Shown piece by piece: positions 15,160-59,150 of a stretch of DNA of 64,000 nt; positions within the stretch are counted from its first letter, which is position 1; the number at the start of each line of letters is the position of its first letter. The notes under the pieces are model-generated. The model searched no databases. It had not been told where the DNA came from and worked only from the letters and a program-made list of their open reading frames with translations. Both the position numbers and the translations under genes were made by a program. The DNA is from Spongilla lacustris. Taxonomy: Eukaryota; Porifera; Demospongiae; Spongillida; Spongillidae. Location of the stretch: assembly GCA_949361645.1 (NCBI GenBank), contig OX442418.1, positions 9,179,376-9,243,375 on the forward strand, given 5' to 3'.

Positions 15160-15773
15160 TATCTGAACCCTGGTTAAATCGCTTATTATAAAGCGAACTC
15201 AGGTTTCCATGGTGATGTTAAAATCCATACGAGAAAGAGCGTAAACAACGCGATGCCATGGCTATATCGGATCAAGTCCGTCATCACTCATCACTGCAAA
15301 AGCCGCTGATCGCATGATGAGCTGCGCTACAGTAGGAGCCAGCGAAACGCGTACGGCAATTACCTACGATGAGTTATGCAAAGGTACGTTCGATAATATG
15401 TTGTTCGTATCGTAACAAACGGTGATAAAAAGGCCACTGACGTTTGGTTGCATGGAGGAACATACCTTCCAACGTGCTAGAAATGTATTAGAACACTAAT
15501 CAGTCTACTTAATCGTACACTCGATAGCATTATGAATAGCGCAGCATTAGCGAGCGTATAAGTCGGTATAACGCAGCTAATAATGGTACATGTATGTTCT
15601 GTACATAGCAAGGCCCTGGTTAAGTCCAGGACTTAATGCACTGCGCTACAAGAGATAATAAAGCCGGAGGTGGCGAGGTAAAGAGGTGATCAATTAATGA
15701 ATCGAAGACACCTTAAATTTTACCTATTGGCCCATCCATCCCCTGAAATTAAAAGGATGGCAAATTTACCTGT

Positions 15774-15825
15774 TGTAGCGTGCCAGAGTGGCTCTCGTGC
15801 AGGAATGGCTTAATAAGGCGCGCCT
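15774..15825 (+). repeat. Left terminal inverted repeat of the 6.1-kb element
   Basis: 52 bp, pairing with 21,802-21,853 at 50 of 52 positions. It contains GCCAGAGTGGCTC, one base different from the half-site GCCAGAATGGCTC repeated in the internal arrays, and ends in the palindrome GGCGCGCC. Confidence 0.93.
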
Positions 15826-16070
15826 CTGAAGTTATTGTAGCGCGCGGTTATTAATTGTATTCACGCATTAATTAACGCATACAGTAGTAGTAAGCTAGTA
15901 AGCCTACTTGGACAGTAGCCTATATTTTGTTTCCTTACCATTTATGTGAATACATGTCCTAAAAACAATAATAATAATAATAATTAACCCCTGCAGACGC
16001 GTCGGGGCCAAAGGGTGAGTCCAGTATAAATTCAGCATACTTTATATACATATTCCTCTGCCTCCCCCAC

Positions 16071-16071
<1 letters not shown>

Positions 16072-16109
<38 letters not shown>
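16072..16109. repeat. Poly-C tract (38 C)
   Basis: The longest mononucleotide run in the window, between the left terminus and the left palindrome array of the 6.1-kb element. Confidence 0.95.
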
Positions 16110-16200
16110 ACGATTCCTTAGCCTGACAGCAATTGAGATATCAATGCATATGATACATGTATAATGTGCATAGAATGTAGTCAATTTTGCAATACTTATT

Positions 16201-16686
16201 GCCAGAATGGCTCCAGCCATTCTGGCACGGCCAGGTACTATATTGGAGTGCTAAAATGGCTCGAGCCATTCTGGCACGGCCAGTTAGTGCCAGAATGGCT
16301 CGAGCCATATTCAAGTATCAGTTGCAACTGGCCGTGCCGGAATGGCTCGAGCCATTCTGGCACTTGAGTATTGCAACTGGCCATGCCAGAATGGCTCGAG
16401 CCATTCTGGCACTCCAGTATAGTACCTAGCCGTACCAGAATGGCTCGAGCCATTCTGGCACTCAAGTATTGCAACTGGCCGTACCAGAATGGCTCGAGCC
16501 ATTCTGGCACTCCAGTATATATAGTACCTAGCCGTGCCATAATGGCATGGCTCGAGCCATTCTGGCACTCAAGTATTGCAATTGGCCGTGCCAGAAGGGC
16601 TCGAGCCATTCTGGCACTCCAATATAGTACCTAGCCGTACCAGAATGGCTCGAGCCATTCTGGCACTCAAGAATTGCAACTGCCGT
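16201..16686. repeat. Left palindrome array of the 6.1-kb element
   Basis: About ten copies of a 24-bp palindrome (half-site CCAGAATGGCTC plus its complement, XhoI site at the centre) at roughly 50-bp spacing. The spacers alternate between TGGCACTCAAGTATTGCAAC-like and a TAGTACCTAGCCG-like form. Some copies carry single changes (CTCCAG centre, AAGGG, truncated arm). Open frames in both strands (PEWLEPFW, NGSSHSGT, ARMARAIL) arise from the palindrome and are not proteins. Confidence 0.95.
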
Positions 16687-16989
16687 AGGTACTTGACAGA
16701 AAAAATTCAAACCTACGTTCACGCGTAATTACATGAACCAGTGTAAAGAGCAAATTTTATGGTTTACAAAACTGCTTTTATGTTTTCTGTAGCTTTTTCC
16801 TAACTGGAGAAGCGGATCGTTAAGTACCGAAAAGTGAATGTACATGTACATGTATAGCGACCAATGCGGTATAAACTGTGATCGCTATGACGCCGATCTT
16901 CAAATTATCATATCTTTATAGTCTTTTAAAATTTTCCTTCGAAACTTTCAAATCTTATAGACTTATACACAGAATACACATTTTTGAAA

Positions 16990-18329
16990 TTACTTACTGG
17001 AATTTGATGCACGATATCAGCTAACACTTTATCTAAAGTTAAGGTATCATCTTCACTTTCCTCTTCCAATTAATGAGCACTCCTATATGATATTATAACT
17101 TTTATACCTTTTTTGAGTTCTTTACATTTAGCACTTTGCCACTGAATTCTTTGTCATGTCCCGGTGATACATTCCATATATGTGTAACGTCCTTTCCATT
17201 TAGCCAATAAGGATTTTCCAATACGGTGTTCACTACTTCTGCTATCCCAGATTCAAGGTCATGAAAAGTTTCATTTACATTACATTCTTTTAAAATTGCA
17301 TCTCTAAAGTTCTTTTCAGTCTATGACCTTGATGTTTTATCACGCTTCTGTTGCATATGCATGCATAAGCCTTGCATGTTCTATTTCTAACCTTAGATTA
17401 TCAATAGCTTTCTGCTGTAGTCGAACATATCTAGCTCTCCCTATCGCAAATGAGATCAGTTTTTCTTGACTATGTTTATCCTTTTCTTCTAACCACTGTA
17501 GAGTTCTGTTTCTTTTAGATTTTACTTTGCCGTCAACAAAACCAATGGTTGCATTTCTCGCACATCGTATTTGATGGTCAGTTAGAGCAAGAGTTTGCTC
17601 TGAATGCATGATGTGGATTGGAGCACCTTGACTTCTGGATAGCATTTCTTGAGTAGGGTTCGATAATGCACCAGTTAGATACGGCTGAAGCTGCCTTTGC
17701 AGAACATCAAGAACACATTGTAATGCCATAGTCATTAAGATGTTGAATTGCTCCTTTTCAAGAGGTGGAATCTCACTCTGCAAGCACTTCAGAGTTTCAT
17801 CATTCTCATTCAATTTCTCTGCAAAAAAATCCTCAGATGTGGTTAAAAATAATTCAGGTGTATTTACAAGGTATTGCAATATATTGACACTTTCCTTAAG
17901 GATGGAAACCACTTCTAACCTTCATTATTGCAATCATCCATGGTCCTGTTATTACCTTTCCAATGAATCCAAGTACTCTAAGCTGAATAAGTAGGCCATT
18001 ATATTGTAAGTCCTTTATAAGAGATGTTCTCAGAGTGGTATTATTGAGGCACATATTTTGCAGGTAATTTAATAATTTATCTTTCAATTGGAAAATATTC
18101 CACTTAAGTAAAACAGAACATGAAATCTATTACCTACATATCGCACAATCACACCAGGCTTTATACTTTCTTGGCAAAGAAAATGCTTGAATCCTGCAGG
18201 ATCACCCTTGCCTTGCTTATATCGCATCTTTGTTAGACCATATAATAAATTACCAACCCTACAGTCACTACCAAATGTGCTGATTTCTATGCCGGTTGTG
18301 TTCTTTATCATATATTTTTTAAAAAGCAC
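16990..18329 (-). pseudogene. Degenerate multi-exon gene inside the 6.1-kb element, family not named
   Basis: Minus-strand coding similarity runs through several blocks. The first, 18,329-18,090, holds a GNRFHVLFYLSG segment. After a one-base frame change, the second, about 18,087-17,925, holds GFIGKVITGPWM. After another frame change, the third, 17,912-17,340, holds a lysine/glutamine-rich tail near TLQWLEEKDKHSQEK. The fourth, about 17,325-17,113, holds NPYWLNGKDV. The fifth, about 17,070-16,995, is acidic (EEESEDDT). Donors and acceptors separate the last blocks. From memory, similar proteins are highly repeated in sponge and cnidarian genomes, but I cannot assign a domain. Its position between inverted termini and palindrome arrays suggests that it is the element's own protein, perhaps a transposase. 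Two frame disruptions make this copy non-functional unless they are sequence errors. Confidence 0.55.
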
Positions 18330-18938
18330 CTCTGATATCAGTTGATATACTATCTAGAGGATGAACATTGCATTTAAGTTCAAGAGAAAAGGAATTGAAT
18401 ATATTATGGCAAATCATAATTCATAAAGCTACTGATGTTAAAAGTCTAGCAAAATCAGCATCTGCGAATTTTGTATGTATTCCCAACTAGACTCTAGTAC
18501 TTAACACCATTACGTTGGCATGCACACGCAATGATGTCCCGCTATTCACTAACGTAACCTCCAGCAAAAAAATAAAATATTGAGCACAGTCCAAAAATTC
18601 TGAAAATTGCATATTATAAAACCAATAGATCAATGAAACGATGCAAGTTGATGATTGATGCAAGTTGATGAAATGATTATAATACCGGAAGGTAGAATAG
18701 ATTAAATAATTTCACACAAAACAGTGTTTTAAATAAAGCAACCACATCTTCTAACAGAGTATAGGTTACACACTAAGAAAACCAAATTCTATCTTAATGT
18801 GACATGTAATACCATAGTTGTTACACATTCAATGGCGGGCTGGAAACAGGCCTTTGCGCATCGTCAGATCGTCCTGAAAGTTTCACGGTACATAGCAATG
18901 GCATGTCTACAACCTTTTTTGACGTTTTCAAGAAGTTA

Positions 18939-20452
18939 CACTGTGCAAAAACTTTGTTATACGATAGTGTATATTTATGCGTATATTTGAGGAATGCGCA
19001 AAATATACCCTGTGTAGTATATTTGAAGTGTACGACCGCGTATATTTGAGAATACGCAAGTGTCAAATACGTCACCGTTTATATAAGCACACCTTCAAAA
19101 TATACGATAGTGTATTCTTAAGAGTATATTTGAATATACTGTACTACTGCGTATATTTCATTCCATAAAATCCCACTGTTTACATAAGTATACCATAGAA
19201 TTAATTCATGAGTGGTCAGTCCCGTACCCGGACCCACGTGAGGTAGGAAGGTGTGTAGGCATCGAAGTCGGAGTGCTACTTTGCTTCTATTAATGCTGCT
19301 GGACGTCAAAGGTTAGCTATATACATGTATGTCTGCTTGGTGTATATACGGCGGTAAATTTTGTGAGCGGTAGGCCGGGCCCATGGTGCATGGCTATGCC
19401 TATGCTAACTCGCCAGTTGAGTTTGGTCATGATCACATCGGATCCCAGTAAATGCTACAATGGAAGCAGTAGAATGCCTACACAGTAGACCTCTATTGGA
19501 CCCCTGTACAAATGTTTGTGTAGTACGATACAAAAGGGCTCCAATTAGAAATGTGGTTAACTAACCGTGCATGTGATTTGTAGATTTTAGGCGGGCTATT
19601 TCATGGTCGTGTTGAATCGCGCTGAGATTAGGGTTGTGATCGTTAAATGGCAATAGTTCGTCTTTCCAGAGTGTACAAGTTACCGGTATTATGTGTTGCA
19701 GTTGCTAAAGAATGAATTCACCTTTCTCTATTTGCACTAGGTTGGCAAGTGTCCTAAGTGTTCCCGTTCGGTTGAACAACCGAAATGATAGAACAACAGG
19801 CACAATGGAGCGCGATATAAAAAGGTATAGGCCTATTCATTTGTTGTGTTTTGCTAAGGTTTTTTTTTTAACTTGCAGACTCCGACCGGACGGTACGGTA
19901 AGTGTTTAACCCGCACTGTTCCATTGTTTTAAGTCAAACATCGGAGATAGGAGACAAGAAAGGTAAGCATATCACTTACCCGATAATGTATCTGTTGCTT
20001 TATATATAGAATCATGTATAAACAGAACGAGGATATGATATGTGGTGGGTGAAATTTTTTTTTTTTACGATATGAATTTATTGTTCGTATTCTGTACAGG
20101 TGCCTTGGATCGAATATATGCAGATTGCCGCCTCGGACTGTTAGTTTGTTGTTTTGTTGTACATGTGCAAAATGATTAAAATTTTAAATTGACTAAACTC
20201 GATCGGGAACGAGGGGTGGGAGTGGTAGGAGGATAATATACGGAATGTGAAGCACTAGTATACGGTGACCGACAACGTAGCCACAAAGTGAATTCAACGG
20301 TTTGCTAAGCAACCACAAATGTCACGTGATCGGTTATATTTGAATATACGCACCTGCGTATATGGTTCTATACGCTGGTGTGTATATTTAAGGTGTATAT
20401 TCAAATATACGCTATAGAATACGCTATCGTATAACAAAGTTTTTGCACAGTG
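18939..20452. mobile_element. EnSpm/CACTA-like non-autonomous element nested in the 6.1-kb element
   Basis: The termini are inverted: the left begins CACTGTGCAAAAACTTTGTT and the right ends in its complement, with similarity continuing for about 34 bp. A 3-bp duplication TTA flanks it (18,936-18,938 and 20,453-20,455). CACTR ends with 3-bp duplications are the hallmark of EnSpm/CACTA elements. The subterminal zones carry many copies of GTATATTTGA / TCAAATATAC in both orientations, the usual subterminal repeat pattern. At 1,514 bp with no long reading frame, it is a deletion derivative needing a transposase from elsewhere. Confidence 0.85.
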
Positions 20453-20724
20453 TTAAAATCATGGGAAGAAAAAAAATCGCAACGTTTATTGTATACTCTA
20501 ATTAGAAAGCAGTACACCTTAACATTCGTATTGCGCATGGTTATATACATAACGCTGTGTGAAAGAGCGTACAAACCTCTATGATCGGGGCAAATTTGAA
20601 GTTTTATCGTCCTTAAACTATATCGAGAACAACATTTTCAAAAAGACCTATCTCTCGTAACCTTCCCAAAAACCAGTCACAATTTTTGACGGGTACGCGT
20701 TACGTGAAATGATTTCCAAGTACC

Positions 20725-21716
20725 TACAACTGGCCGTGCCAGAATGGCTCGAGCCATTCTGGCACTCAAGTAATGCAACTGGCCGTGACAGAATGGCTCG
20801 AGCCATTCTGCAAATGTACATGTAGTCAGTAACTGGCCGTTCCAGAATGGCACGAGTCATTCATTAATTAGTGCCATGCAGCGAATGGCTCGAGCCATTC
20901 TGGAACGGCCAGTTGCAATAGTCTTAATTGAGTGCCAGAATGGCTCGAGCCATTCTGGAACGGCCAGTTGCAATAGTCTTAATTGAGTGCCAGAATGGCT
21001 CGAGCCATTCTGGAACGGCCAGTTGCAATATGAGTGCCAGAATGGCTCGAGCCATTCTGGCACGGCCATGCAGTTGCAATACTTAAGTGCCAGAATGGCT
21101 CGAGCCATTCTGGCACGGCCAGGTACTACATTGGAGTGCAAGAATGGCTCGAGCCATTCTTGCACCGCCAGTTACTATACTTGAGTGCCAGCCATTCTGC
21201 TCGAGCTATTCTAGAACTGCCAGTTTCAATAGTCTTAATTAAGTGCCAGAATATCTAGAGCCATTCTGGCACGGCCAATTACATTATTGGAGTGCCAGAA
21301 TGGCCCGAGCCATTTTGGCACGGCCAGTTGCATTACTTGAGTGCCAGAATGTCTCGAGTCATTCTGGCACGGTCAGTTGCAATACTTTATTTAGTGCCAG
21401 AATGGCTCGAGCCATTTTGGCATGGCCAGTTGCAGAATGGCTCGGGCAAGGTCAGTTGCAATACTTTGCTTATTAGTGCCAGAATGGCTCGAGCCATTCT
21501 GCCACGGCCAGTTGCAGAATGGCTCGGGCAAGGTCAGTTGCAATACTTTGCTTATTAGTGCCAGAATGGCTCGAGCCATTCTGGCAAGGCCAGTTGCAGA
21601 ATGGCTCGAGCAATTCTGGCACGGCCAGCTACTATATTTAAATATCATGCAGAATGGCTCAAGCCATTCTGGCAGAGCCATTCTGGCACTGAAAACCGGC
21701 CGTGCCAGAATGGCTC
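20725..21716. repeat. Right palindrome array of the 6.1-kb element
   Basis: Roughly twenty copies of the same 24-bp palindrome as the left array, in mirrored overall orientation (spacers read CACGGCCAGTTGCAATA instead of the complement). The inner boundary AAGTACCTACAACTGGCCG is the complement of the inner boundary of the left array. Near 21,420-21,600 half-palindromes joined to GGGCAAGGTCAGTTGCAATA form a higher-order repeat of about 110 bp. Confidence 0.95.
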
Positions 21717-21801
21717 GCACAAATTATATTCATAGTTAGTTTATCCGTCCGGGTACGAAAATTCACGATTTATTAATTAAATTAGCCGTACGGCTCACTA
21801 A

Positions 21802-21853
21802 AGGCGCGCCCTATTAAGCCATTCCTGCACGCGAGCCACTCTGGCACGCTACA
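21802..21853 (-). repeat. Right terminal inverted repeat of the 6.1-kb element
   Basis: Complement of 15,774-15,825 with two mismatches, followed directly by the CCTGT target duplication at 21,854. Confidence 0.93.
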
Positions 21854-21878
21854 CCTGTTGCAAGTCAAACTGCCTGCT

Positions 21879-21929
21879 CAGGGGCGGATACAGGATTTCA
21901 GACAAGAGGGGGTTGTTAATGAGAGCGAA

Positions 21930-21967
<38 letters not shown>

Positions 21968-21981
21968 GCAACCCGCCCCTG
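21879..21981. repeat. Small G-rich fold-back with CAGGGGCGG ends
   Basis: Begins CAGGGGCGGATACAGG and ends CCGCCCCTG, a 9-bp inverted pair, with a 36-base G run (21,930-21,965) between. It looks like a miniature hAT-type derivative; no clear 8-bp duplication is visible. Confidence 0.4.
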
Positions 21982-21989
21982 ACTGCTGT

Positions 21990-58004: not shown

Positions 58005-58860
58005 GCTAAGTTTAAAAAATATTTTGTAAGTTTATCTGTATTGTCACTGTATATATATATATATATGTATATCTTATTGAATTGTCTTGTACAGACTTTG
58101 TTCATTATGTTATCAGGACCCACGGTAGGGGGTCCTATGTAGGATTGCCTTCGGATTTGCTTAGGTGAGCGTGGTTTTGGATCGAGCGTTTTAAAACGGT
58201 AACGAAGCGTTGCCTTTACTCGCCAGCTCGTATAATATAATCCATCACAAACATGACTGATGTGCACATATAACGTGAGCTTCGCTAAACAGTGCAGTTT
58301 ACCTTGAACGACAAGTAGGCGCCTAAATTCCGCCATTTAATTTTTCGTTCTTCTTCCGTTCATCACGTTGAACTCGCGACAGGAACGTCGTAAGAAGACT
58401 AGATTAGCTTCAAAAAGTTGCATTTGATTTCCAAACGTGCCCTTTCATACAAATAAGACCTAAAGTTGTTAGTTGGTGATGAAATGCCGTGAAATGACCC
58501 AAGCAGGTGCAATTCATTATCGGTGATATTTCTCGTTGCCTAGCAGTATGCAATATGACGTCACACACGCGCTTAATTTACTGTTGCCAGGCTACGCACA
58601 CAGCTGCAGATACGTTTACAACAGGCGGTTCTAATTCAGCAAAGGTGAGCAAGCCAAAGAAAACGGCTCGTTAACAAGGAGAACTCTGAGTTTAAGGTAT
58701 CCAAAGAACAAAGGTAGACCTATCAATAAAATTAAAAAGAGGCCTATATAACCAATAAGAGGAATCTAAGTGTCCTATGCATTGCAACGAATGCACTATT
58801 ATACCGGTATTAAATTGACTGAACACTCCTGGCAGGGAAAAAAAAATGAGGGGAACAAGT
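58005..58860. other. Noncoding stretch
   Basis: A short TA repeat (58,050-58,070) and nothing else recognised. Confidence 0.4.
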
Positions 58861-58864
58861 AAAT

Positions 58865-59150
58865 CAAAAACTTCTCTATCGAGAAAGTGATTGGTGGTAT
58901 GTAGGATTGGTGGTGCAAAAAGCAAGGAAACAAGGTACAGTATGTTAAAGTGAGGTTTGGTAGGATCCTACAACTATTACAGTCCTACATTTGCAAATAG
59001 GCATCTTCATTTGCAAATTCAGGACTGTAAGTTGTAGGATCCTGCCATACCTCACTTTAACATACTGTACCTTGTTTCCTTGCTTTTTGCACCACCAATC
59101 CTACATACCACCAATCACTTTCTCGATAGAGAAGTTTTTGATTTACTTGT
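58865..59150. repeat. 286-bp long inverted repeat (fold-back)
   Basis: Arms of about 120 bp are almost perfectly complementary: the left starts ACAAGTAAATCAAAAACTTC, the right ends with its complement. A loop of about 40 bp itself contains a short repeat (CATTTGCAAAT). RNA from either strand would form a long duplex. It has no known terminal signature, so it may be a fold-back element or a small-RNA source. Confidence 0.92.

Follow-up and report, generated by a model that had tools for sequence, protein, structure and literature searches.

In the CACTA/En-Spm transposons, short motifs form subterminal arrays in direct and inverted orientation (PMC8978399), and in En/Spm the subterminal repeats are bound by TNPA (PMC2613891). 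In the soybean CACTA element Tgmt*, a 17-bp subterminal motif makes up 2 + 12 palindromes (PMC2613891). Here we describe an element that carries such palindromes in larger number, located in a 64,000-nucleotide stretch of the demosponge Spongilla lacustris (GenBank assembly GCA_949361645.1, contig OX442418.1, positions 9,179,376 to 9,243,375; hereafter the window). With a probability of about 0.7, we regard it as a non-autonomous, low-copy animal DNA transposon with terminal inverted repeats (TIRs), in which an array multiplies the putative transposase-binding site and for which the transposase would be supplied in trans.

Palindromes or repeated binding sites near the ends have also been described in other superfamilies. 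Identical 19-bp palindromes occur at both ends of piggyBac, the C-terminal domains of the transposase bind as a dimer to a palindrome near the ends of piggyBac and piggyBat, and piggyBat has three palindromes, all at its left end, its subterminal sites being reported to hold transposition back (PMC11707139). The target of piggyBac is TTAA (PMC2872659). Galileo, of the P superfamily, has repeated sites for a THAP transposase in its internally repetitive long ends, and these repeated sites are proposed to confer specificity on the binding (PMC3688188). With regard to end sequence and duplication length, Ginger2/TDD elements have TGTNR ends and RTATAY targets, TDD-4 and TDD-5 make 5-bp duplications, and Ginger1 combines TGTNR ends with a 4-bp duplication of CCGG or CCGT (PMC2836005).

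Termini, copies and past movement

The outer element of the window begins with TGTAG and ends with CTACA. As an earlier sequence-only reading had reported, 50 of the 52 positions of its TIRs match, and CCTGT is directly duplicated on both sides (Table 1). Copies were sought in the 248.6-Mb genome (51 contigs; the window is C4:9179376-9243375), and labels such as L009 or L010 denote the genomic loci fetched for comparison. The left 100 bp of the element gave 23 matches, as did the segment 21695-21853, which includes the TIR; the terminal 22-mer, at up to 3 mismatches, was found at 23 places, two of them within arrays. The segment 15826-16060 gave 30 matches, 19 of which are confined to query position 179 onward, a stretch common to other repeats. 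When we grouped the terminus matches by location, the outer TIR was found to occupy 14 independent places, together with two segmental duplicates (L017, whose flank is that of L010, and L022, whose flank is that of L019).

Both ends are present in six copies, namely the window copy, L009 (1648 bp), L010 (6398 bp), L011 (3092 bp), L012 (4540 bp) and L014 (6069 bp). Perfect 5-bp duplications flank three of the six (CCTGT, CATGT and GCTGC); in L014 the flanks read CTAGC on the left and CTAGG on the right. All 19 ends that were compared (without L017, L021 and L022) start with TGTAG or a near variant, and along TIR columns 1-42 the commonest base is present, column by column, in 15 to 19 of them. 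Past the TIR, the alignment separates the ends into two divergent types, L and R.

Past movement of the outer family, with a 5-bp duplication, is shown by uninterrupted relatives of the repeats that host L009 and L014, which retain a single pre-insertion site. L009 sits in another repeat, and when its flanks were joined, 39 of the 40 matches scored among 162 candidates crossed the junction, the remaining one being its own right flank. In each of the eight empty sites aligned from these 39, the 5 bp are present once (CATGT in seven, AATGT in one). L014 also lies within another repeat; 22 of 28 rows crossed its junction (two others were its own flanks and four were too short), and CTAGG occurs once in all seven empty sites aligned. 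Therefore, the left CTAGC of L014 is a later change. These results bear out the prediction of a mobile inverted-repeat element in many copies, three of the six two-ended ones having their own perfect duplication. The sequence-only reading had left the duplication size at 5 or 7 bp; the empty sites give 5 bp, and the 7-bp alternative, ACCTGTT, is intact at the window copy alone, since its last base is changed in L009 and L010. The proposed test of mobility was thus positive for the family, but for the window copy itself the joined flanks yielded no junction-crossing match among the 40 matches scored.

The palindrome array and the nested transposon

The unit of the array is a 30-bp palindrome, with GTGCCAGAATGGCTC and GAGCCATTCTGGCAC as its two halves, plus a spacer. 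Within 8 mismatches of this palindrome, 27 units were found in the window, 10 to the left and 17 to the right of an interruption. The palindromes are therefore real, but their description as perfect applies over 30 bp to only 4 of the 27. Inside the window element the 24-mer core occurs 10 times exactly and 26 times at up to 4 mismatches, compared with no match at the latter threshold in the rest of the window. Genome-wide, the exact 24-mer occupies 65 places, and 203 places match the 30-mer when up to 3 mismatches are allowed; the reversed controls have none. Arrays are present in all six two-ended copies, with 17-35 units in the five outside the window. L009 has the same plan as the window element, its 18 units forming one block without a central insertion.

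The common plan consists of an L-type end, one array of at least 17 palindromes and an R-type end, which is the shorter of the two. The distance from the L-type terminus to the first unit is approximately 411-448 bp in L009, L012, L014 and the window; it is greater in L011 (1016 bp) and in L010, where the 2924 bp include a nested insertion. The corresponding distance on the R-type side is approximately 128-236 bp in all six. The undisturbed length, as judged in two copies (L009 and the window), is 1.65-2.03 kb. Unit statistics were drawn from 264 units at 11 loci (the duplicate L017 and the three-unit L020 were left out). The commonest step is 49 bp, with 103 of the 264 units having the next unit at exactly this distance. 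Over these 103 units the palindromes are more similar to one another (0.877) than the spacers (0.741), and this order holds in seven of the eight loci that contribute at least four such units. Spacers are of at least two types and occur in both orientations. Strong folding is predicted for one strand of the segment 21030-21180 (z -13.2), as expected of palindromes, and no Rfam match was found within the window.

The 6.1 kb spanned by the outer ends is made up of three elements, one within another. The second is an unrelated transposon running from GTAGGTACTTG to CAAGTACCTAC, with relatives in L024, L025, L028, L033 and L034. The two relatives in which both ends could be aligned have 5-bp duplications of their own (CCATA in L034, TTATG in L025), and no palindrome was found in L024, L025, L026, L028, L033 or L034 (3.3-3.6 kb each). 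In the window, this transposon landed in a spacer of the array, with AACTG on both sides and two extra bases on the left; removal of its 4043 bp together with one AACTG and the 2-nt filler leaves an element of 2030 bp in which all 27 units are retained and the junction is bridged by a 49-bp step. Because excision restores this step, there is a single array of 27 units in an element of approximately 2.03 kb without a gene, split by the nested transposon. The mirrored arrays of the sequence-only reading are therefore one interrupted array, which seems mirrored because palindromes read alike both ways, and its 6.1-kb element with an own gene is likewise not supported. A transposase-like frame does lie between the two parts, but it belongs to the nested transposon. 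The third element, of 1516 bp, has a relative in L020 (94% over 461 bp). No match to the central DNA (E <= 1e-6) was found in any of the five other two-ended copies, and L009 has no open reading frame (ORF) of at least 70 aa outside the array-derived frames, which were excluded from the scan. A nested insertion can therefore make a gene-less element resemble an autonomous one with mirrored arrays.

The nested family is represented by at least 150 matches scored (several per copy) among 361 candidates. Its relatives, which also include L045 and L046, contain open frames of up to 965 aa, and the putative transposase has invariant D375, D454, C479 and H482. Pfam searches on 11 members gave two lone matches overall (E 0.0026 and 0.0052); the first member had no match with E <= 0.01. 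Named relatives occur in Capitella teleta and Nymphon striatum; searches against PDB gave only weak coiled-coil-type matches for the nested transposase and no match for the window frame. Both the outer and the nested element make 5-bp duplications, but a single family comprising the two was judged unlikely, because the one visible end of the distant nested-family relative L046 reads GTAGGTACTTC inward, unlike TGTAGCGTGCC. A scan of L045 and L046 for paired ends with duplications found none.

A half-site common to the ends and the array

Positions 7-21 of the TIR agree with the half-site of the array in 14 of 15 bases, and positions 24-38, in the same direction, in 12 of 15. When the letters of the right TIR were shuffled 20000 times, a site with at most 3 mismatches arose in 28 shuffles and one with at most 2 in 4; no shuffle reached 1 mismatch. 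The shared motif is thus arranged in direct pairs in the ends and in inverted pairs in the array. Mainly because the ends and the array carry the same motif, we infer that the mobilising enzyme recognises sites in the array. The sequence-only reading had proposed that the arrays act as multivalent binding sites; the recurrence of the half-site in the TIR lends support to this putative binding.

In the working that we propose, an autonomous relative would supply in trans a transposase that recognises GTGCCAGARTGGCTC, of which each TIR contains two directly oriented versions, one with 1 and the other with 3 mismatches. The enzyme would cut at TGTAG...CTACA and insert the element with a 5-bp stagger, presumably by cut-and-paste. 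Transposase dimers may bind the array at the palindromic pairs of the TIR half-site, and tens of such dimer sites would either gather the transposase or titrate it away from the ends. These two roles are drawn from the precedents of En/Spm TNPA, Galileo and piggyBat. A further-reaching version, in which the TGTAG ends and the 5-bp duplication would mark a separate animal DNA-transposon superfamily, with transposase dimers on 17-35 palindromes and a gene-less element that either outcompetes its autonomous partner for transposase or is held back by its array, as in piggyBat, seems to us quite unlikely.

A partner was sought among the fetched loci and TIR-like ends, with ORFs of at least 125 aa considered in 13 loci and of at least 70 aa in L009-L012 and L014. 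No recognisable own gene was found in any copy examined. L010 holds a hAT C-terminal piece, the interior of L014 is part of a repeat with 144 genome-wide matches, the older relative at L049/L051 is a relic holding other repeats, and on C2, where two arrays (L035, L018) enclose a further stretch, the frames are mostly of low complexity; all were rejected as partners. L015 has an rve protein (E 4.8e-10) approximately 7 kb from an L-type end, with a neighbouring H2C2 match below the Pfam cut-off; L015/L039 was also rejected, since its rve gene and weak Josephin-like neighbour are accompanied by no second copy of the outer TIR. L016/L040 did not qualify either: an rve integrase (PF00665) and large open frames lie there beside an R-type end and a CACGG end of the CACNGCTGTTTGCGGCTGGACA kind described below (L016:1346-9900 and L040:834-1913). 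The large frames gave no significant Pfam match; they look capsid-like, and the element polinton-like or virus-like.

Several results weigh against a transposon that multiplies its own binding sites. No autonomous copy was found among the fetched loci and TIR-like ends, and the transposase is thus hypothetical. The duplication of L012 is out of register, and L011 shows none under either pairing tried; in addition, because the element ends in A, duplications of 5 and 6 bp would read alike wherever the flank has an A before the duplicated bases. In L014, palindromes are not more similar than spacers (0.837 v 0.842, 5 units), and the overall spacer figure is lowered by the existence of at least two spacer types in both orientations. 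Finally, changes affecting both arms of a palindrome numbered 13 compared with a shuffle mean of 11.5, so that no selection on palindromicity through paired changes was seen in the 242 units.

This last result also favours the main rival, according to which the transposon is real but its array a mere passenger. A half-site resembling that of the TIR would have given rise to a palindromic minisatellite, which then expanded through slippage or unequal exchange and has no role in transposition. The varying number of units (27 in the window, between 17 and 35 in the remaining two-ended copies) and the 103 of 264 units at an exact 49-bp step are likewise in its favour. However, the array is present in all six two-ended copies, its half-site is common to the TIR, and the half-site core is its best conserved part, and we consider the passenger explanation possible but doubtful. 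Mobilisation by a Ginger2/TDD-like enzyme, whose transposase is integrase-like (rve), would fit the TGTNR ends, the 5-bp duplications of TDD-4 and TDD-5 (PMC2836005) and the rve protein in L015. It is nevertheless unlikely: the targets CCTGT, CATGT, GCTGC and CTAGG are neither CCGG/CCGT, as in Ginger1, nor RTATAY, as in Ginger2, no second outer TIR was found in L039 on the far side of the L015 gene, and in no case were two outer TIRs seen to enclose an rve gene.

Two further alternatives are far less probable than these. A solo long terminal repeat (LTR) of a retrotransposon would have the TG...CA ends and the duplication size, but not the 52-bp terminal inverted repeats, and no directly oriented pair around an internal region was found among the fetched loci; we regard it as very improbable. 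That the 6.1 kb could after all be a single element with its own transposase gene between two terminal arrays is suggested by the position of the transposase-like frame. This is scarcely credible, since the gene region also occurs at other loci, where it has TIRs and duplications of its own but no palindromes, the array step is regained on excision, and L009, like the other four two-ended copies, lacks the region. The preferred interpretation remains a gene-less transposon whose array repeats the putative recognition site of its ends.

Feature coordinates and neighbouring elements

Table 1. Positions in the window of the outer element, its array and the insertions within it
Feature	Coordinates	Strand	Basis
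Target-site duplication, left copy, CCTGT	15769..15773	+	Flank reading; 5-bp size backed by L009 and L014 empty sites
Left TIR (L-type end), starting TGTAGCGTGCCAGAGTGGCTC	15774..15825	+	50/52 identity to right TIR
Half-site 1, left TIR, GTGCCAGAGTGGCTC, 1 mismatch to array half-site	15780..15794	+	0/20000 shuffled TIRs reach 1 mismatch
Half-site 2, left TIR, GTGCAGGAATGGCTT, 3 mismatches, direct orientation	15797..15811	+	Motif comparison
L-type subterminal region, without palindromes, poly-C tract included	15826..16198	.	Alignment of ends
Palindrome array, first part, 10 units	16199..16666	.	Unit scan
Inferred duplication AACTG of nested transposon, left copy, then 2-nt filler CC	16678..16682	+	Junction analysis
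Nested unrelated transposon, GTAGGTACTTG...CAAGTACCTAC, with remaining putative transposase frame	16685..20727	-	Relatives elsewhere, own ends
Third insertion, within nested transposon, TIR CACTGTGCAAAAACTTTG, probable TTA duplication	18939..20454	.	Absent from L025, L034
Inferred duplication AACTG of nested transposon, right copy	20728..20732	+	Junction analysis
Palindrome array, second part, 17 units	20736..21675	.	Unit scan
R-type subterminal region	21676..21801	.	Alignment of ends
Right TIR (R-type end)	21802..21853	-	50/52 identity to left TIR
Half-site 1, right TIR	21833..21847	-	Motif comparison
Target-site duplication, right copy, CCTGT	21854..21858	+	Flank reading

Other elements were observed in the surroundings of the outer family. 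One with ends CACNGCTGTTTGCGGCTGGACA occurs at 584 genomic places at up to 2 mismatches and lies inside or against five outer-family copies or relics (L010:1077, L013:8904, L016:1166, L020:2592 and L048 near 770); by a rough estimate, its association with the low-copy outer family looks to exceed chance. At L011:4049-5065, a TGF-beta ligand frame (PF00019, E 6.8e-12) runs up to the L-type end of the copy with its final codons, and the TIR, by reading, supplies its stop codon. In the window, a short element CAGGGGCGGA...CCGCCCCTG with a poly-G tract (21878-21985) adjoins the right end and looks hAT-like. Of 40 matches scored, 38 are other places that share approximately the first 40 bp of this short element. 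In addition, a palindromic short repeat at 58311-59150 of the window, 81-91% identical, is also present beside L010 and L011.

Comparison with known systems

CACTA TIRs start with CACTA, or CACTG in some elements, and the duplication is 2-4 bp; Transib and ProtoRAG have a 5-bp duplication and CAC-type ends, and the duplication of Galileo is 7 bp. On the features tested, membership of the present element in CACTA, Ginger1, Ginger2, Transib and piggyBac fails. With Transib and ProtoRAG, the duplication length fits, whereas the ends do not. The TGTNR ends of Ginger1 fit TGTAG, but no 4-bp CCGG or CCGT duplication is made here; Ginger2/TDD shares both the TGTNR ends and the duplication length, but the four targets are not RTATAY, and no rve integrase was seen within any two-ended copy. 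The comparison with piggyBac and piggyBat concerns ends and duplication only: palindromes lie near the ends in both cases, but they are few there compared with 17-35 here, and the TTAA target was not found. Galileo and Foldback-like elements also have repeated transposase sites in repetitive ends, but these are tandem repeats within long TIRs, with another end sequence and duplication.

Literature on palindromic or subterminal arrays, which was covered in part, names no such element with these ends, and no literature text matched the TIR 15-mer or the palindrome 20-mer. The statement in the sequence-only reading that no element with dozens of such palindromes is known is only partly right, as the 2 + 12 palindromes of Tgmt* come near to it (PMC2613891). 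The present element resembles CACTA/En-Spm in its direct and inverted subterminal arrays of short motifs, and the soybean elements Tgmt* and Tgm1 in the paired inverted orientation of the subterminal motif, which yields a palindrome array. It differs from these elements in its TGTAG rather than CACTA ends, its 5-bp rather than 3-bp duplication and the presence of the motif in the TIR as well, and no tnp genes were seen. Taken together, we regard the outer element as a TIR transposon, probably non-autonomous, whose subterminal array is palindromic and for which soybean Tgmt* is the nearest architecture found. It offers a natural case of a transposon in which the half-site present at both ends is repeated in an array, with as many as 35 palindromes.

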